A stretch of DNA of 42,232 nucleotides from Gemmatimonadota bacterium. GTDB lineage: Bacteria > Gemmatimonadota > Gemmatimonadetes > Gemmatimonadales > GWC2-71-9. Positions 4,642 to 12,562 of the stretch are shown here, in pieces; position 1 is the first letter of the stretch, and each line of letters begins with the position of its first letter. The notes below the pieces were generated by a model. It did no database searches. It saw only the letters and a program-made list of their open reading frames with translations, and was not told the DNA's origin. The stretch spans positions 1-42,232 of the forward strand of contig QHUB01000053.1 of the NCBI GenBank assembly GCA_003221035.1. Reading direction: 5' to 3'. The translations under genes and the position numbers were made by a program.

Positions 4642-4932
4642 TTACAACAGCGCGCGCAGCGAGTTCTCTATTTCGGAATTCGGGACTGCGCGCGCACCGC
4701 AGTCCCGCGCGGCGCGCAATGCCGCCGCGTCGGTATGTGAGCCGAATGCCAGTACCGGGATTCCGCGCCGTACGAGTTCGCGGATCCTGGTCTCGGCATT
4801 CGGCTTTGTCAGTTCGATGACGGCGACGTCGGCGGGTTCGTCCCGGACAGGCTCTGATCCGCTGCGCCGCACGACCGCTTGCAGCTTGCCGCGGAAGAAC
4901 AGATCGCGGCACTCGATGAGGACGCGTTTCAC
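4642..4932 (-). CDS. Degenerate receiver-like (CheY-like) protein
   Basis: 96 residues with the alternating beta/alpha pattern of a response-regulator receiver: 'RVLIECRDLFF' (strand 1 and acidic residues), 'DVAVIELTKP' (strand 3), 'IPVLAFGSHTDAAALRAARDCGA' region (strand 4 and helix 4) and 'RAVPNSE' (strand 5). The expected phospho-acceptor Asp on strand 3 is replaced by Glu40, and the conserved Lys after strand 5 by Asn85. It should therefore not be regulated by phosphorylation in the normal way; Glu might mimic the active state. No output domain. Its start overlaps the glycyl-tRNA synthetase stop by 4 nt (ATGA), so it is the last gene of that operon. Confidence 0.7.
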   Translation of the reverse strand: MKRVLIECRDLFFRGKLQAVVRRSGSEPVRDEPADVAVIELTKPNAETRIRELVRRGIPVLAFGSHTDAAALRAARDCGARAVPNSEIENSLRALL

Positions 4933-6293
4933 CCCGCGAGCTTTTGCGTCAGATACCCGACCAGTTGACTCGTCGCCACGCGATCCTGCTTCAGGGTATC
5001 GCGGTCGCGGACGGTGACCGTCTGGTCCTGCGTGGACTGGCCGTCGATCGTGATGCCGAACGGCGTGCCTGCTTCATCCTGACGGCGGTACCGGCGGCCG
5101 ATCGACCCGCCGTCGTCGTAGAAGACGTTGAAATGGTGACGCAGGTCGTCGTGAATCCTGTGCGCCAGCTCGGGCATGCCGTCCTTGTTGACGAGCGGGA
5201 AGACCGCGGCTTTGAGCGGCGCGAGTGAGGGCTTGAGCTTCAACACGACGCGCTGCGCTCCGCCCTCGGCCGCTTCCTCGCCGCGCACCTCTTCCTCTCT
5301 ATACGCGTCGCACAGCACGACGAGCGTAGTGCGATCGGCGCCCGCCGAGGTCTCGACCACGTACGGAATGAATCGCTCGTTCGTTTTGGGATCGAGGTAG
5401 TCGAGTTTCTTGCCCGCGTGCTTCTGATGATTGGACAAATCGAAGTCGGTGCGGTTGTGGATCCCCTCGAACTCGTTCCAACCGAACGGGAACTCATACT
5501 GGATGTCGTATGCATCCTTGGCGTAATGCGCCAGCTCGTCCGCGCCGTGCTGATGCCAGCGCAGCTTCTCCGGCCGGATGCCCAGTCCCTCGACCCATTT
5601 CATCCGCTCGGCGCGCCAGAACTCGAACCATTCGTTCTCGCTGCCCGGCTTCACGAAAAACTGCATCTCCATCTGTTCGAATTCGCGCGTGCGAAAGATG
5701 AAGTTGCCGGGCGTGATCTCGTTGCGGAACGCTTTGCCGACCTGCGCGACGCCGAACGGAATCTTCTGGCGCGAGGACTGCAGCACGTTCAGGTAATTGA
5801 CGTAGATGCCCTGCGCCGTTTCGGGACGCATGTAGATCACCGCCGCCTGATCCTCGACCGGTCCCATGAACGTCCTGAACATGAGATTGAACTGGCGCGG
5901 CGCGGTGAGCGTGCCCTTGCTCCCGCACACCGGACACTGCGCGTCGGGCTGGCCGGGCGTTCCCTTGATCTTGGGATCGTCGGCGCGGAAGCGGTTCTTG
6001 CACTGCTTGCAGTCGACGAGCGGATCGGTGAAGCCCGAGACGTGTCCCGATGCTTCCCACACCTTGGGATGCATCAGAATCGCGGCGTCGAGGCCCTCGA
6101 TGTCGTGGCGTTCGTGGACCATCGACCGCCACCACCGCTCCTTGATGTTCTTCTTGAGCTCGACGCCGAGCGGGCCGTAGTCCCACACGGAGCCAAGGCC
6201 GCCGTAGATCTCGGAGGATTGGAAGACGAAGCCCCGTCGCTTGGCGAGCGACACGAGCTTGTCCATCGTCTTATCGACAGTTACTGGGGGCAT
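4929..6293 (-). CDS. glyQS: Glycyl-tRNA synthetase, alpha2 (eukaryote/Thermus-like) type
   Basis: 454 residues from ATG 6291-6293. A further upstream start at 6383 is open but overlaps the glycerate kinase and adds 30 residues unlike the family. The single-chain alpha2 form is recognisable from 'SEIYGGLGSVWDYGPLG' near residue 27. A zinc-binding insertion has Cys95, Cys98, Cys120 and Cys123. Class II motif 2 is 'FRNEITPGNFIFRTREFEQ' (189-207), and 'ETSAGADRTTLVVL' is motif 3. The C-terminal anticodon-binding domain includes 'YDDGGSIGRRYRRQDEAGTP'. It attaches glycine to tRNA-Gly in the cytoplasm. It lies 13 bp downstream of the glycerate kinase stop and overlaps the receiver-like gene by 4 nt, so it belongs to the riboswitch-headed operon. 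Confidence 0.95.
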   Translation of the reverse strand: MPPVTVDKTMDKLVSLAKRRGFVFQSSEIYGGLGSVWDYGPLGVELKKNIKERWWRSMVHERHDIEGLDAAILMHPKVWEASGHVSGFTDPLVDCKQCKNRFRADDPKIKGTPGQPDAQCPVCGSKGTLTAPRQFNLMFRTFMGPVEDQAAVIYMRPETAQGIYVNYLNVLQSSRQKIPFGVAQVGKAFRNEITPGNFIFRTREFEQMEMQFFVKPGSENEWFEFWRAERMKWVEGLGIRPEKLRWHQHGADELAHYAKDAYDIQYEFPFGWNEFEGIHNRTDFDLSNHQKHAGKKLDYLDPKTNERFIPYVVETSAGADRTTLVVLCDAYREEEVRGEEAAEGGAQRVVLKLKPSLAPLKAAVFPLVNKDGMPELAHRIHDDLRHHFNVFYDDGGSIGRRYRRQDEAGTPFGITIDGQSTQDQTVTVRDRDTLKQDRVATSQLVGYLTQKLAG

Positions 6294-6306: not shown

Positions 6307-7386
6307 TTACAAACGCAGCGCCTCGCGCGCGACCTGCTCCGCCATGCGGGAAAGGGCGGCACCGTCCAGCATTCGACCGTCATCGTCTCCGCCCAGTGTG
6401 TGCACCCCAGTCAGCGCTTCGACCCGACCTGCCACCACGGCGATCTTCTTTCTGGCGGCGTGGGAGCGCCGGATGACCTCGCCCGGCGCCTTTCCAAGGA
6501 GCGACGTCCGGTCGAAGACGCCTTCGCCGGTGATCACAAGGTCAGCCTTGGCAAGCGCCGCATCGAAGCCGGCGCGCTCCAAGACCCATTCCGCTCCGCC
6601 CGTCAGATCGGCTTTGGCAAAGAAGGCCAGTCCGGCGCCGAGGCCCCCGGCGGCGCCACCCATGGGAAGGACACCGAGCTCAGGCCGCCCGGCATGAGCC
6701 CAGAGTGCCGCGAGGCGGATCAGACCAGCGGCCAGACGTGGAATCTCCTCGGGGCGCGCGCCTTTCTGCGGGCCGAAAACGGGCGCGGCACCCTCTGGTC
6801 CCAACACAGGTGTCTGCACGTCGGCCAAGGCCACGACTCGCGCACCCAAGGGCCAGCCGGAACCGAACGACGCGAGGTTTTCGAGCGCGCCGCCGCCGTC
6901 CGGGAGGGGTTCTCCTGCCGCGTTCTCGAACGTCCAACCAAATCCCCGCGCCGCACCGGTTCCGCCGTCGACGGTTGCCGTCCCGCCGAGGCCCACGACA
7001 ATCGTTTTGGCACCGCGGTCGGCAGCGGTCCAGATCAGCTCACCCACTCCTCGCGTCGTGGTACGCGTGGGGTCGCGATCCTCGGGCTCGACGAGTGCTA
7101 GTCCGCAGGCGGACGCACTCTCGATGAGTGCGGTCTCGGCATCGATCCAACCGAGCTCCGCGGATACCGACTCGCCGATCGGGCCGCTGACCTCCAGACG
7201 TTCGCGCAGCGCGCCGGTCGGGAGCACGACATCCAGCAGGCCGTTGCCGCCATCGGCGACGGGGCATTCGAGCACCGTCGCATCGGGGAAGGCACGGCGG
7301 ACGCCCAGCGCCAACGCCTCGGCGACCTGGCGCGGCCCGAGAGTTCCCTTGAAGGCGGCTGGCGCCACGAGGACCACTGGGGACAT
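6307..7386 (-). CDS. glxK: Glycerate kinase (GlxK/GarK family)
   Basis: 359 residues, the usual length for this family is about 380. It starts with 'VLVAPAAFKGTL', followed by 'CPVADGGNG' near residue 40. 'VGLGGTATVDGGTGAARGFG' is near 132, and 'TGEGVFDRTSLLGKAPGEV' near 290, the ATP/glycerate-binding signature. The reaction is ATP plus D-glycerate to phosphoglycerate (2-phosphoglycerate in most characterised members), linking glyoxylate or serine breakdown to lower glycolysis. A 'GGGAG' ribosome binding site sits 13 nt before the ATG. Immediately upstream are an intrinsic terminator (7407-7440) and a c-di-GMP-I aptamer (7525-7603), so expression is probably controlled by premature termination. 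It is the first gene of the operon with glyQS. Confidence 0.93.
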   Translation of the reverse strand: MSPVVLVAPAAFKGTLGPRQVAEALALGVRRAFPDATVLECPVADGGNGLLDVVLPTGALRERLEVSGPIGESVSAELGWIDAETALIESASACGLALVEPEDRDPTRTTTRGVGELIWTAADRGAKTIVVGLGGTATVDGGTGAARGFGWTFENAAGEPLPDGGGALENLASFGSGWPLGARVVALADVQTPVLGPEGAAPVFGPQKGARPEEIPRLAAGLIRLAALWAHAGRPELGVLPMGGAAGGLGAGLAFFAKADLTGGAEWVLERAGFDAALAKADLVITGEGVFDRTSLLGKAPGEVIRRSHAARKKIAVVAGRVEALTGVHTLGGDDDGRMLDGAALSRMAEQVAREALRL

Positions 7387-7406
7387 GGGGCGAACTTAAC
7401 TCCCAG

Positions 7407-7440
7407 AAAACGAGAAACCCTCTGGGTTTCCCCAGAGGGT
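7407..7440 (-). terminator. Intrinsic terminator in the glxK leader
   Basis: Reading the minus strand, a 10-bp perfect stem (ACCCTCTGGG/CCCAGAGGGT, 7431-7440 and 7417-7426) with a 4-nt loop is followed by TTTCTCGTTTT. It stops only about 20 nt before the glxK ATG and lies downstream of the c-di-GMP aptamer, so it reads as the expression platform of that riboswitch rather than as the end of an upstream gene. Confidence 0.75.
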
Positions 7441-7524
7441 GATCGCCTGCCGCACACCGTGCGCCCTAGAACCCGATGTGAGCGAAGCGAACGTCTTTCT
7501 CGCAAAATCGGGGCGGCGCATCGG

Positions 7525-7603
7525 ACTCTGGCAGCCGGGCTGTCTCCGAGAGACCCCTAGCTTTGCGCCCCGCCGTCACCGGCGGTTTGCCCTTATCGAG
7601 AGT
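7525..7603 (-). promoter_or_regulatory. Cyclic-di-GMP-I (GEMM-I) riboswitch aptamer
   Basis: On the minus strand the core (7592 down to 7530) follows the GEMM-I consensus element by element. It opens with GGGCAAACC. Next comes a hairpin with stem CCGCCG/CGGCGG closed by a GTGA (GNRA) tetraloop, and then the invariant GCGCAAAGC. A second helix GGGTCTC..GAGACAGCC follows, ending with CCCGGCTGCC. The 5' GGCA and 3' TGCC close P1, and ACTCT (7599-7603) can pair with AGAGT (7525-7529) just outside. The base equivalent to Vc2 G20 appears to be G, which fits c-di-GMP rather than cGAMP specificity. It is followed by a terminator and then glxK-glyQS. A glycine riboswitch was considered and does not fit. 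Confidence 0.9.
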
Positions 7604-7612
7604 TCTGCGCGT

Positions 7613-7642
7613 TTGATAAGCAAAAGGAATGCCGACTTGTAA
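7613..7642 (-). promoter_or_regulatory. Candidate sigma-70-like promoter of the riboswitch operon
   Basis: Minus strand: TTACAA (7637-7642), 18-nt spacer, TATCAA (7613-7618). The predicted start, about 7605-7607, would put the first transcribed bases directly at the 5' edge of the aptamer (7603), which is the expected arrangement. The boxes are imperfect and no other support is available. Confidence 0.4.
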
Positions 7643-7788
7643 GCGCTGTCACTACAACGACGAGTCGAATGACCTAGGTAAAGTACCTAACGGTAAACCG
7701 CACTGAATACTGCAAAATGCGGTCAGCAAAACAGTGCCGAGTAGACGCCCAGACGCCCAGACGCTGAGCGGTCGGGAGTGACGAGGTT
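7643..7788. other. Intergenic stretch between riboswitch promoter and four-helix gene
   Basis: No open frame of note. It holds two small hairpins: TAGGT/ACCTA (7675-7679 and 7685-7689) and ACCGCA/TGCGGT (7697-7702 and 7718-7723). The second, read on the minus strand, is followed by only three T residues. They could be weak 3' structures for the four-helix-bundle transcript. The tandem repeat at 7743-7764 is listed separately. Confidence 0.4.
7743..7764. repeat. Tandem AGACGCCC repeat, left arm of an inverted repeat pair
   Basis: Two and three-quarter copies of the 8-mer AGACGCCC. Its first 14 bases (AGACGCCCAGACGC, 7743-7756) are the exact reverse complement of 8244-8257, on the other side of the four-helix-bundle gene. 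Confidence 0.75.
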
Positions 7789-8145
7789 CTAGGCCGCAGC
7801 GCTCGAGAGCTTCCGTAGCAAACCGAAGACCGTTCGCGCGCATTCGTCGTGCGCTTTGATTACCTCATCAAGCTCGGCTGGCTTGAACAGGTCGAGGTGT
7901 CGGACGAGGTCGAGGACAGCCTCAACCTCAACCAACGATCCTCGAGCGACATCTGTGAAGCGACGGAATTCTTTGGCGCCCCGACGGCTGACGCCCTCGG
8001 CGAGGTTCAAAACGATGCTATTACAAGCACGGCGCCACTGATCCGCCAGGTCACGTTCGACAGTGGGCAGCCGATTGATGAGAGGCCGCGACACTACGGC
8101 AAGGCGTCGCGCGTGTTGGTAGGCCTTCAGGTCTTTGAAGATCAT
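7789..8145 (-). CDS. Four-helix-bundle protein (23S rRNA intervening-sequence protein family)
   Basis: 118 residues from ATG 8143-8145. The family begins 'MIFKDLKAYQHARRLA' (F.dL..wq.A..L), so the longer frame upstream is not used. Conserved blocks are 'RRACNSIVLNLAEGVSRRG' near 40-58 and 'FTDVARGSLVEVEAVLDL' near 64-81. The family is named after ORFs inside 23S rRNA intervening sequences and is related to the Avd protein of diversity-generating retroelements. Most members, like this one, stand alone, and their function is unknown. No reverse transcriptase or rRNA is nearby. Flanking 14-bp inverted repeats hint that gene plus flanks came in as a unit. Confidence 0.85.
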   Translation of the reverse strand: MIFKDLKAYQHARRLAVVSRPLINRLPTVERDLADQWRRACNSIVLNLAEGVSRRGAKEFRRFTDVARGSLVEVEAVLDLVRHLDLFKPAELDEVIKAHDECARTVFGLLRKLSSAAA

Positions 8146-8243
8146 GTTGGAAGGTAGCGACGAACGAGCAGACCTCGTCATCAAAATCATGCGTGGCGTA
8201 GCTTTTCTCGCCACATGCCGCTAGCAACCACTGTGCGCCTATT

Positions 8244-8275: not shown

Positions 8276-9562
8276 CTAGACCTCGATGATCTGATCTCTG
8301 CGAGTACCGACACTCACATAGCGCACCGGCGCGCCGGCCAGGTCCTGCAGTCTATCCACGTACGCTCGTGCCGCTGGGGGAAGATCAGCCAACCGGCGCA
8401 CATCGGTCAGCGGTTTTTGCCATCCGGGCACCATTTCATAAATCGGCTCGACACGCGCAATCGTTTCGACATCCGCCGGCATGCTGTCAATTATCTCGCC
8501 GTCCAGCTTGTACCCGACTCCAACCGGGATTTCCGCGAACGTATCCAGGACATCGAGCTTCGTCACCGCCAAGCCGGTCAGTCCGTTGATGCGGACCGCA
8601 TAGCGAACCACCACGGCATCAAACCACCCACAGCGCCGCGGCCTGCCGGTCGTCGCGCCGAACTCGCCGCCGAGCTGCCGAATCCGCTCCGCGACGTCGG
8701 GCTCGGCTTCCGTGGGCAAGGGCCCGTTTCCGACGCGCGTCGTGTACGCCTTCACCACGCCGATCACCGCATCGATCGCGGTTGGCCCGATCCCGACTCC
8801 GACCGCCGCGCCGCCCGCCGTGGTGTTCGAGGAGGTGACGTACGGATATGTCCCGTGATCGACGTCGAGCAGCGCTCCTTGCGCGCCTTCGAGCAGCACC
8901 GACTCCCCGCGCTGCAGCGCGTCCCAGACGACGCGTCCCGAGTCCACGGCGAGAGGCAGGAGGCGCGGCGCGAGCCGCTCGAGCAAATGCACGTGCTCCT
9001 CGGCGCCGGCCCGTTCGCCGCTCCCAGCGCCCAGCATCCCAAGCATGGTATTGGCCGCTTCCACGCGCGCGCGTACAAGCTCCTGGGCCCGCGCCATATT
9101 GCGAAGGTCTCCCACCCGCAGGCCACGCCGGCCGTACTTGTCCTCGTACGTGGGACCGATCCCCCGCCCCGTGGTCCCGATCTTGTCCTGCTTCTCGCGC
9201 GCGCGGTCGAGCAGTTTGTGATAGGGCAGCGTAAGATGCGCGCGGTCGGACACGTGCAGCTTGTGCTCGGTGCGCACCCCGCGCGCCTCGAGCGCATCCA
9301 ACTCGGCGAACAGCTGCTCGGGGTCGAGAACCACGCCGTTCCCCACCACGCAGACCGCGCCCTGAAGGATGCCGGACGGGATCTGATGCAGCACGAACGA
9401 CTTACCCTCGCCCGTGTCCACCGTGTGACCGGCATTCGCGCCGCCCTGGTAGCGCACCACGAGGTCGGCGCGCTCCGCGAGGACGTCGACCACTTTGCCC
9501 TTGCCCTCGTCGCCCCATTGGGCACCGACCACGACAACACATTGGATTTTTGGGCCGAACAC
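8276..9562 (-). CDS. purA: Adenylosuccinate synthetase
   Basis: 428 residues from GTG 9560-9562, chosen because AGGAG lies 7 nt upstream; the next ATG would remove the N-terminus. 'VVVGAQWGDEGKGKVVD' (10-26) is the GTP-binding loop with the catalytic Asp, and 'NAGHTV' the catalytic His region. 'TTGRGIGPTYEDKYGRRG' near 130 and 'GATTGRPRRCGWFDAV' near 300 (IMP and GTP sites) are also present. It couples GTP hydrolysis to IMP plus aspartate to adenylosuccinate, the first step from IMP to AMP. Only 16 nt separate its start from a strong intrinsic terminator, leaving no room for a promoter in between; this suggests attenuation or a promoter further upstream. Confidence 0.96.
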   Translation of the reverse strand: MFGPKIQCVVVVGAQWGDEGKGKVVDVLAERADLVVRYQGGANAGHTVDTGEGKSFVLHQIPSGILQGAVCVVGNGVVLDPEQLFAELDALEARGVRTEHKLHVSDRAHLTLPYHKLLDRAREKQDKIGTTGRGIGPTYEDKYGRRGLRVGDLRNMARAQELVRARVEAANTMLGMLGAGSGERAGAEEHVHLLERLAPRLLPLAVDSGRVVWDALQRGESVLLEGAQGALLDVDHGTYPYVTSSNTTAGGAAVGVGIGPTAIDAVIGVVKAYTTRVGNGPLPTEAEPDVAERIRQLGGEFGATTGRPRRCGWFDAVVVRYAVRINGLTGLAVTKLDVLDTFAEIPVGVGYKLDGEIIDSMPADVETIARVEPIYEMVPGWQKPLTDVRRLADLPPAARAYVDRLQDLAGAPVRYVSVGTRRDQIIEV

Positions 9563-10522: not shown

Positions 10523-11405
10523 CGCGCACGAGCGCGCTGACACGCTCGCGGTCGGCGTCCGACACTGGCGCGAGCGGTGCGCGCACGGGACCGCCGTACA
10601 ACCCGACTGCATCCATGGCGGCTTTCACGCCCCCGGGTCCGAGCTTGCCGACAATCTCTTTGTCGAGCGGCGTGATGCGCTCTTGCAGCGCGCCCGCCGC
10701 GGCGCGGTTGCCGCTCGTGTACTCGCGCACGAGCTGCACGCAGAGCGCCGGCGCGTAGCACGCGACACCGACGATGCCGCCCTGGCAACCGAGCTCGAGT
10801 GCGGTGAAGAGCAGCGACGCGCCGCCCACGAGCACCGCCCACTGCGGCACGATCGCGCGGTACGCGGCGACGCTCTTCGGATCACCCGACGAATCCTTGA
10901 CGCCGATGACCCGCTCGTGCTTCGACAGTTGTTCCAGCAGCCCGGGAGCGAGCGCGAGGTGCGTGTACTTGGGGATGTTGTAAATCAACACCGGCACGGG
11001 GCTCGCATCCGCGACGGCGCGGTAATGCACCAGCAACGATGCCGGCGTCGTGCCGGCGGCATAATAGGAGGGCGGGCGCACCAGCACCGCGTCAGCACCT
11101 TCCTCCGCCGCCGCCCGGCTGAGGGCGATCGTCTCGCGCGTGGACTCGCCACCCGTGCCGGCGATCAGCCAGGCACCGTCCGTCATGGTCTCGCGGGCTA
11201 TCGCGACCAGCTCGCGCTGTTCGTCCGCATCGAGCATCGCCGATTCGCCGGTCGACCCCGTGACGACGATGCCGTTCACGCCGGCTGCCAGCAGCCGCGT
11301 GATGTTGTCGCGGAAACGTTGTGCCGCGATGTCGCCCGTCGTCGGCTCGAACGGCGTGGTGATCGGCGGGAAGATTCCGGCGGGCCCGGGCTTCCTCTCG
11401 GTCAT
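10515..11405 (-). CDS. DapA-superfamily aldolase, 4-hydroxy-2-oxoglutarate aldolase-like
   Basis: 296 residues. Class I aldolase of the DHDPS/NAL superfamily: Schiff-base Lys170 in 'VIGVKDSSGD', Tyr142 in 'LIYNIP', and the 'GSTGE' loop (50-54). The C-terminal 'GLYGGPVRAPL' (268-278) and 'YNIPKYT' match, as I recall them, mammalian 4-hydroxy-2-oxoglutarate aldolase (HOGA1) better than lysine-pathway DapA. The likely reaction is then cleavage of a 4-hydroxy-2-oxo acid to pyruvate plus an aldehyde such as glyoxylate; true DapA activity cannot be ruled out. Overlaps pilT by 4 nt and the M28 gene by 8 nt. Confidence 0.88.
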   Translation of the reverse strand: MTERKPGPAGIFPPITTPFEPTTGDIAAQRFRDNITRLLAAGVNGIVVTGSTGESAMLDADEQRELVAIARETMTDGAWLIAGTGGESTRETIALSRAAAEEGADAVLVRPPSYYAAGTTPASLLVHYRAVADASPVPVLIYNIPKYTHLALAPGLLEQLSKHERVIGVKDSSGDPKSVAAYRAIVPQWAVLVGGASLLFTALELGCQGGIVGVACYAPALCVQLVREYTSGNRAAAGALQERITPLDKEIVGKLGPGGVKAAMDAVGLYGGPVRAPLAPVSDADRERVSALVRGD

Positions 11406-12562
11406 GACGGCAGCATGCTCGACAGATCGTCCGTGAATCCCGCCGGCTTGGCATCGCCTTGCGGCGCCTGCTGTGGTGAAGCCGCGACGCGCGAGCGGCG
11501 CCGCAGGGTCTTGAGCTGTAACTGGAAATCTGAAGGGTTCGACGAAGCGGCCAGCGCGGTCTCGTAGGTCACGATATCGTCTGCGACCAAATCCATGAGA
11601 TGCTGGTCGAACGTCTGCATTCCGTACTGCTCGCGCGATTCCTTGATGTAGTCGTGCAGCGAGGGTGTCCGCTCCTTGTCGCGGATCATGTCCCGCGCCG
11701 CACCCGTGGCGAGCAGAACCTCGAGCGCGGCCGCCCGACCGTGCCCATCCGCACGGGGCAGCAGGCGTTGGGACACGACGGCGTGCAGCGCCTCGGACAG
11801 CCGCAGCCGGGCGATTTCCTGCTCTTCCGGCGGAAACATCGACACGATGCGGCTGACCGTGGTCACCGCATCGGGCGTATGCAGCGTGGACACCAGCAGG
11901 TGGCCCGTTTCAGCGGCCTTCATCGCGGTGTCGATCGTCTCGGCATCGCGCATTTCACCGATCAGGATGACGTCCGGATCCTGGCGCAGCGCCGCGCGCA
12001 GGCCGGTGCGGAAATCGTCCGTGTCCACGCCGATCTCGCGCTGCGTCACGGAGCAGTTGATGTCGCGGTGCAGGAACTCGATCGGGTTCTCGAGCGTGAG
12101 GATGTGGCGGTGCTGGTTCTGGTTGATGTGATTCATGATCGCCGCCATGGTCGAGCTTTTCCCCGACCCCGTCACTCCCGTCACCAGGATCATCCCGCGC
12201 TCGGCGTTGCCGACTTCGGCGAGCACCGCAGGGAGCTTCAACGACTCGAACGTGGGCACGTCGAAGGGAATCACGCGCATCACGATCATGAAGGAAGAGC
12301 GCTGCCGCAGGATGTTGACGCGGAAGCGCCCGATGCCGGGCATGCCCCAGGAGCAGTCGTAGTCGCGGAGCTTGTCGATCCGGCCCCGGTCCTCGTCGTT
12401 GGAGATGAGGCGCTGGGCGATCGCCTTGGTCTGTTCCGGCGTCAAACGCTGCTTGGTGAGCGGCACCAGCTTGCCGTCGATGCGGGCGCGGAAGACGTCG
12501 CCCGCCTTGATGTGCAAATCGGACGCCCCGCGATCGACCGCGGCCTTGATGATTTTTTCCAT
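11402..12562 (-). CDS. pilT: Type IV pilus retraction ATPase PilT
   Basis: 386 residues. 'RGASDLHIKAG' (11-21) is the N-terminal PilT signature. Walker A is 'GVTGSGKSS' (129-137), the Asp box 'LTLENPIEFLH' (155-165), Walker B 'DVILIGEMRD' (197-206) and the His box 'ETGHLLVSTLHT' (218-229). The C-terminus carries 40-50 extra, poorly conserved residues. This cytoplasmic hexameric motor depolymerises pili, driving twitching and DNA uptake; no other pilus gene is in the window. It starts directly at the end of the dehydrogenase stop (no gap) and overlaps the aldolase start by 4 nt. Confidence 0.94.
   Translation of the reverse strand: MEKIIKAAVDRGASDLHIKAGDVFRARIDGKLVPLTKQRLTPEQTKAIAQRLISNDEDRGRIDKLRDYDCSWGMPGIGRFRVNILRQRSSFMIVMRVIPFDVPTFESLKLPAVLAEVGNAERGMILVTGVTGSGKSSTMAAIMNHINQNQHRHILTLENPIEFLHRDINCSVTQREIGVDTDDFRTGLRAALRQDPDVILIGEMRDAETIDTAMKAAETGHLLVSTLHTPDAVTTVSRIVSMFPPEEQEIARLRLSEALHAVVSQRLLPRADGHGRAAALEVLLATGAARDMIRDKERTPSLHDYIKESREQYGMQTFDQHLMDLVADDIVTYETALAASSNPSDFQLQLKTLRRRSRVAASPQQAPQGDAKPAGFTDDLSSMLPS

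Follow-up and report, generated by a model that had tools for sequence, protein, structure and literature searches.

A candidate free-standing small RNA with a c-di-GMP-I aptamer between purA and glxK in a Gemmatimonadota genome

The DNA analysed here (the window) is one whole contig of 42,232 nucleotides (nt), QHUB01000053.1, of the Gemmatimonadota assembly GCA_003221035.1, which comprises 3.36 Mb in 113 contigs and is 98.7% complete. On its minus strand, between purA and the genes for glycerate kinase (glxK) and glycine--tRNA ligase (glyS), lies a cassette that consists, in this order, of a sigma-54-type promoter, a riboswitch aptamer of the c-di-GMP-I (GEMM-I) class, a variable-length spacer, a structured tail of ~53 nt, and an intrinsic terminator (Table 1). 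An original prediction for this locus had recognized the aptamer and taken it for the leader of a glxK-glyS operon, and had overlooked the terminator hairpin at 7440-7417, the conserved tail, and the promoter. A comparison of metagenome-assembled DNA directly supports the aptamer, the promoter box, the terminator, covariation in the tail, independence of orientation, and modular loss of the aptamer. The cassette probably specifies a free-standing small RNA of ~200 nt, driven by sigma-54, with a 5′ aptamer for cyclic diguanylate (c-di-GMP) and a tail that would be a trans-acting effector gated by this ligand.

When the whole window was scanned with Rfam (cmscan), the sole match above threshold was found at 7600-7526 of the minus strand, where the c-di-GMP-I-GGC model (RF03167, gathering score 59 bits) scores 67.2 bits with an E-value of 6.6e-14, or 7.8e-16 if the search is confined to 7300-7800. 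At the same position, the c-di-GMP-I model (RF01051, gathering score 35 bits) reaches 65.0 bits in a genome-wide search (E-value 2.3e-12), and the aptamer thus passed the Infernal check proposed for it. Since none of 14 control genomes has a match at either cut-off, these scores are far beyond chance. The blocks named in the original prediction are all present in the order it gave, namely GGGCAAACC, a P1b hairpin with a GUGA loop (GNRA type), GCGCAAAGC, a second helix, and GCCCGGCUGCC. The segments GGGCAAACC, GCAAAGC, and CUGCC are present in the window and in 23 aptamer-bearing rows, and such differences as occur fall outside the pocket triad. In the window this triad, in the usual Vc2 numbering, is G20, A47, and C92, the canonical set for c-di-GMP. 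The RF03167 consensus has G at position 47 (CGCGAAGC), presumably the source of the name 'GGC', whereas the window has the canonical A (CGCAAAGC), for which reason a variant with altered ligand (GGC) was dropped; the label given by Rfam appears to reflect overall sequence likeness. Because the triad is canonical, with A47 and not G47, c-di-GMP is the expected ligand, and the window RNA is very probably a GEMM-I aptamer that binds it.

Five GEMM-I aptamers are found in the window's genome (G000) by the RF01051 search. As judged from the sequence and its reading frames, the other four, two of them in tandem, precede genes for surface proteins with Ig-like repeats (contig C17, 53449-53698, loci L010/L006; C25, 8241-8331, L007; C62, 7079-6993, L009), and the protein behind the L007 aptamer contains very long proline runs. 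Such a position before a surface protein gene is the ordinary use of GEMM-I.

With regard to the start of the RNA, a box of the pattern GGCA[CT]N5TTGC is present in 27 of the 27 members with upstream sequence, 40-45 nt before GGGCAAACC. Its layout is that of a -24/-12 sigma-54 promoter, from which transcription would begin at the aptamer's 5′ edge. The elements of such a promoter, GG-N10-GC, the TGGCAC-N5-TTGC consensus, and rpoN in the genome, are all found at the sequence level; of the 22 carriers in which rpoN was sought, 20 have it, the window's genome among them. In addition, copies of TGCATTATGC (two or fewer mismatches), which may be activator sites, recur near -68 and -87 relative to the box in most relatives and are weak in the window. 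The terminator sits between the aptamer and glxK, ~20 nt before the glxK start in the window. Across ten representatives drawn from separate lineages, conservation is restricted to the box (mean pairwise identity 85%), the aptamer (86%), the tail (86%), and the terminator (79%); the spacer is at 51% and the flanks are at 54-61%, with 54% over the 60 nt preceding the box.

The two-helix structure of the tail is supported by covariation: 95.5% of cells are paired, 8 of 15 pairs are changed on both sides, 0 of 500 shuffles match, and a shift of the partner by 1-3 columns lowers the pairing to 28-50%. For example, CAUCG/CGAUG in most members is replaced by CACUU/AAGUG in G038, one of the distant members (with G014, G050, and G141) in which the stems differ and the 14-nt loop GGUUCUAGGGCGCA is unchanged. 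The tail covariance models R1 and R2 match 32 of 102 family genomes, in a single copy each; of the 395 genomes sampled from the phylum, they match none that lies beyond the family. An exact search for CGGGTTCTAGGGCGCAC in a collection with one genome per species retrieved 27 Gemmatimonadetes metagenome-assembled genomes (MAGs) and four unrelated records in which the remainder of the tail is absent. That search presupposes the loop; less biased routes are the tail covariance models and the cassettes located via glxK, and the loop is present in 18 of 18 of the latter. The relatives are recorded as soil Gemmatimonadetes MAGs. The tail is covered by no Rfam family in the cmscan of the window, and a small peptide encoded by it was rejected, no reading frame with a shared start spanning the tail.

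The orientation of the cassette relative to its neighbours was surveyed by searching for both glxK and RF01051 in 101 related genomes. The aptamer adjoins glxK in 17 of them, with its strand varying: it lies on the glxK strand in seven genomes of the window's genus (G000, G001, G002, G003, G006, G007, and G008) and on the opposite strand in G004 of that genus as well as in 9 of 9 genomes of other genera (G019, G024, G028, G039, G048, G049, G053, G057, and G059). The conserved gene order is pilT-dapA-M28 peptidase-purA-(trxB)-cassette-glxK-glyS, in which trxB was named from its translated 3′ end, and in genomes outside the window's genus the cassette is directed away from glxK and converges on purA or trxB at the 3′ end. 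The aptamer, together with its spacer, tail, and terminator, is inverted as a single cassette. In a tree of PurA, GlyS, and GlxK, the cassette is antiparallel to purA and glxK except in one clade of the window's genus; a single late inversion within this genus appears to have put it before glxK, while the neighbours stayed in place.

The aptamer is also separable from the remainder of the RNA, being absent, with the tail retained, in at least seven genomes. These include the outgroup genus g6 (G014, G050, and G141) and members inside the group, where the aptamer was lost at least twice (G034/L098/L111; L105) and where G034, L098, L111, and L105 also retain the sigma-54 box. Since the tail is kept when the aptamer is lost and the neighbours change, the tail, and not the aptamer or the adjacent gene, would be what selection keeps.

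Table 1. Features of the cassette and its surroundings, in window coordinates.
Feature	Position	Strand	Basis or remark
glyS, glycine--tRNA ligase, neighbour; likely start MDKLVSL (from sequence)	about 4929..6266	-	NF003211, E 5.2e-197
glxK, glycerate kinase, neighbour; probably not a conserved target	6307..7386	-	TIGR00045, E 2.4e-88
Intrinsic terminator ACCCTCTGGGGAAACCCAGAGGGT TTCTCGTTTT	7407..7440	-	Hairpin 7440-7417 and T-rich stretch; kept in all members
Conserved tail, putative effector module; two stacked helices (UCGCUU-CGCU / GGC-AGGCGA; ACAUCG / CGGUGU)	7441..7493	-	Covariance models R1, R2
Invariant 14-nt apical loop GGUUCUAGGGCGCA	7460..7473	-	Identical in 21/21 rows of alignment A3
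Variable spacer (GCGCC-GCCCCGAU); can pair with tail loop; candidate expression platform	7494..7525	-	51% mean pairwise identity; predicted folds
GEMM-I (c-di-GMP-I) riboswitch aptamer; canonical G20/A47/C92 pocket	7526..7600	-	RF01051 65.0 bits, RF03167 67.2 bits
Sigma-54-type promoter box GGCATTCCTTTTGC (GG-N10-GC)	7620..7633	-	GGCA[CT]N5TTGC pattern in relatives
Possible upstream activating sequence CGCATTTTGC, copy of TGCATTATGC	7712..7721	-	88 nt upstream of the -24 GG
purA; small RNA converges on its 3′ end in the ancestral arrangement (trxB between in several genera)	8276..9562	-	TIGR00184, synteny
pilT, type IV pilus retraction ATPase	11402-12562	-	Heads the gene row near the small RNA in nearly all relatives

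Two further observations concern the surroundings of the cassette. A four-helix-bundle gene (TIGR02436, S23-type; 7789-8214, minus strand) separates purA from the small RNA in G000, G006, and G008 but not in other congeners. In G047 (L091, about 5830), purA directly adjoins glxK with no cassette between them; here the cassette was either lost from, or never gained at, the purA-glxK locus.

Control of a glxK-glyS operon, as the original prediction supposed, by an ordinary c-di-GMP riboswitch acting in cis through transcription termination is very improbable given this distribution. It is true that glxK and glyS lie downstream on the same strand, that in the window and six congeners the RNA would be transcribed towards glxK with the terminator directly before that gene, and that CCAGAG of the window aptamer can pair with CUCUGG of the terminator. 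Because the gap from terminator to start codon is only about 20-60 nt, some read-through into glxK-glyS in the window's genus is likely, and glxK must be read either through the terminator or from a promoter overlapping it. However, the orientation is reversed in G004 and throughout the other genera, the terminator and tail are just as conserved where no gene lies downstream, and the CCAGAG/CUCUGG pairing is missing in congeners such as L115, L123, and L112. A check proposed with the prediction, for the same leader before glxK in relatives, found it on the glxK strand only in the seven genomes of the window's genus. With its terminator in front of glxK and its strand reversed elsewhere, the cassette probably does not have the role of an operon leader that had been assigned to it; an effect on glxK in the window's genus is possible, as a secondary and lineage-specific one.

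The convergence on purA or trxB in the ancestral arrangement has led us to consider an antisense-acting riboswitch, in which the converging gene would be repressed in cis by the RNA or by the transcription that starts at its promoter, and antisense-acting c-di-GMP-I riboswitches have indeed already been proposed (PMC9943018). We regard this as about as improbable, since the RNA's own terminator beside the stop codon means that it hardly overlaps the coding region of the neighbour, the converging gene differs between genera, and in the window's genus the RNA converges on no gene, yet the tail loop is invariant. Equally remote is a c-di-GMP sponge, that is, an abundant RNA storing or buffering c-di-GMP with a tail that merely stabilises its end, as might be suggested by an orphan c-di-GMP aptamer that, as in merRNA (PMC3627812), comes with a promoter and a terminator of its own, since the tail occurs without the aptamer in at least seven genomes (four of which keep the sigma-54 box) and would thus be the essential part, an invariant 14-nt loop is unnecessary for a sponge, and, unlike a merRNA-type store, the tail is conserved across about ten genera with the aptamer present or absent.

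A free-standing small RNA with a c-di-GMP-gated tail would work as follows. The sigma-54 promoter, with likely upstream activator sites, would start the transcript, and the intrinsic terminator would end it. The tail, a two-helix stem with the invariant loop, would be the effector in trans, either by Hfq-free pairing of the loop with RNA or by binding of a protein. In genera with a terminator-like hairpin between aptamer and tail, c-di-GMP binding would decide whether the tail is synthesized; in the window's genus, in which the spacer can pair with the loop, it would decide whether the tail is displayed. Transcription, c-di-GMP binding, action in trans, and the direction of control are what we infer from the DNA comparison.

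Predicted folds offer some guidance on both forms of control. The short spacer of the window's genus carries GCGCC-GCCCGAU, complementary to AUCGGG....GGCGC of the tail, and when the RNA 3′ of the aptamer is folded, the loop enters pairing with the spacer in about half of the members. For the full window RNA the native tail has a predicted probability of 0.56, and in four congeners the loop is predicted to be masked in both states. In eleven long-spacer members and G038, a G+C-rich hairpin lies between aptamer and tail, with a U-rich stretch after it in most (UUUUUUGUUGGG in L118 and UUUUUUUCGUUU in L122 are examples), which may tentatively be read as riboswitch-controlled tail synthesis of the kind found in Rli55 of Listeria. 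The folds lean towards c-di-GMP as an OFF signal for the tail. A pairing of aptamer CUGCC with tail GGCAG within the window's genus was dismissed as evidence, since GGCAG is already present in aptamer-less relatives.

Several observations weigh against a gated effector RNA of this kind. Compared with shuffles, the spacer-loop complementarity of the window is not significant (z -0.23); five members are at z about -1.7 or lower, and values of about -2 to -3 occur only in L110, L112, L113, and L114. Because per-sequence complementarity is not significant, the spacer-loop switch was rejected as a proven mechanism and is retained as an inferred one. A simple terminator scan did not count the middle hairpin of L118 as a terminator. 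By inspection, G038 has a sigma-70-like promoter in place of the sigma-54 box, and a sigma-70-like sequence likewise replaces the box in G014. Searches with the loop in the window's own genome and in ten genomes of its genus found no conserved target site; the complement of the loop core, the 10-mer GCCCTAGAAC, is nearly absent from these ten genomes outside the RNA itself, and for this reason an antisense target cannot be named. Finally, Hfq and CsrA were not detected in the 14 carriers searched, which removes the best-known routes of small-RNA action.

Several candidate modes of action were set aside. An antisense target reached through the loop was rejected, the window's own genome giving 35 matches with three or fewer mismatches over 16 nt, versus 57 for the reversed control. 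A CsrA-sponge RNA and Hfq-dependent pairing were rejected as well, as neither csrA nor hfq was found in the 14 carriers.

In G002 and G005 (L184 and L181, about 1500) and in G001 (L187, about 238), the same-sense loop 11-mer GGTTCTAGGGC was also observed where pilW ends, at its stop codon, immediately before a pilX-like gene of a pilV-pilW-pilX-pilM cluster. This may be chance, since the 11-mer is coding for the pilW C-terminus. A more far-reaching proposal, which we consider unlikely, is that the RNA stands for a new class in which c-di-GMP, through a detachable aptamer, controls an Hfq-independent, sigma-54-driven RNA. Its invariant loop would then target type IV pilus or surface functions, perhaps as a mimic of an mRNA site, for instance GGUUCUAGGGC where pilW and pilX meet in these three congeners.

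To our knowledge, nearly all c-di-GMP riboswitches described so far are gene leaders. In the present case, the aptamer would be a modular sensor attached to a conserved non-coding RNA and gained or lost while the remaining RNA persists; if this is true, one second messenger could act in trans on many genes. The setting is a phylum in which gene regulation has hardly been studied and where neither Hfq nor CsrA, the customary protein partners of small RNAs, was found. A misreading that linked an essential tRNA synthetase to c-di-GMP is corrected as well, and the tail covariance model, together with the exact 14-nt loop, can now be used to search for targets. A literature search on Gemmatimonadetes riboswitches and orphan c-di-GMP riboswitch RNAs, whose coverage left out many subscription papers, found no description of this RNA.

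The aptamer agrees with GEMM-I (RF01051) in sequence, fold, and pocket residues, and differs from it in use, as the window RNA has no gene under conserved cis control. RF03167 is the best-scoring Rfam model, from whose consensus the aptamer departs by having A47 in place of G47. EutX of Enterococcus is a small RNA controlled by an adenosylcobalamin (AdoCbl, B12) riboswitch, as is Rli55. The two are stand-alone transcripts that run from an aptamer through a switchable terminator to a trans-acting effector module (for Rli55, PMC8079631), a layout that the RNA described here would share. As in Rli55, the RNA has its own promoter and terminator and needs no downstream gene, although this holds at the level of sequence only, and it has a separate conserved module as its putative effector, the tail persisting without the aptamer. 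SreA of Listeria, a S-adenosylmethionine (SAM) riboswitch acting in trans (PMC8079631), is a riboswitch RNA with a trans function, as the window RNA would be; it is the terminated leader of a transporter operon, whereas the window RNA has no operon. merRNA of Bdellovibrio bacteriovorus, a non-coding RNA of 445 nt that contains a c-di-GMP riboswitch, heads no gene, and has been proposed to store c-di-GMP (PMC3627812), shares with the window RNA the riboswitch and the lack of a gene behind it, but is not conserved outside Bdellovibrio, whereas the tail studied here is conserved in about ten genera whether or not an aptamer is present. By analogy, Rli55 and merRNA appear to be the closest known systems. 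The layout resembles that of Rli55, while the ligand, promoter, and effector differ: in Rli55 and EutX the ligand is B12 and the effector an ANTAR substrate, and here they would be c-di-GMP and a new two-helix tail whose 14-nt loop is invariant, under a sigma-54 promoter in a Gemmatimonadetes host, with an aptamer that is gained and lost while the effector stays.
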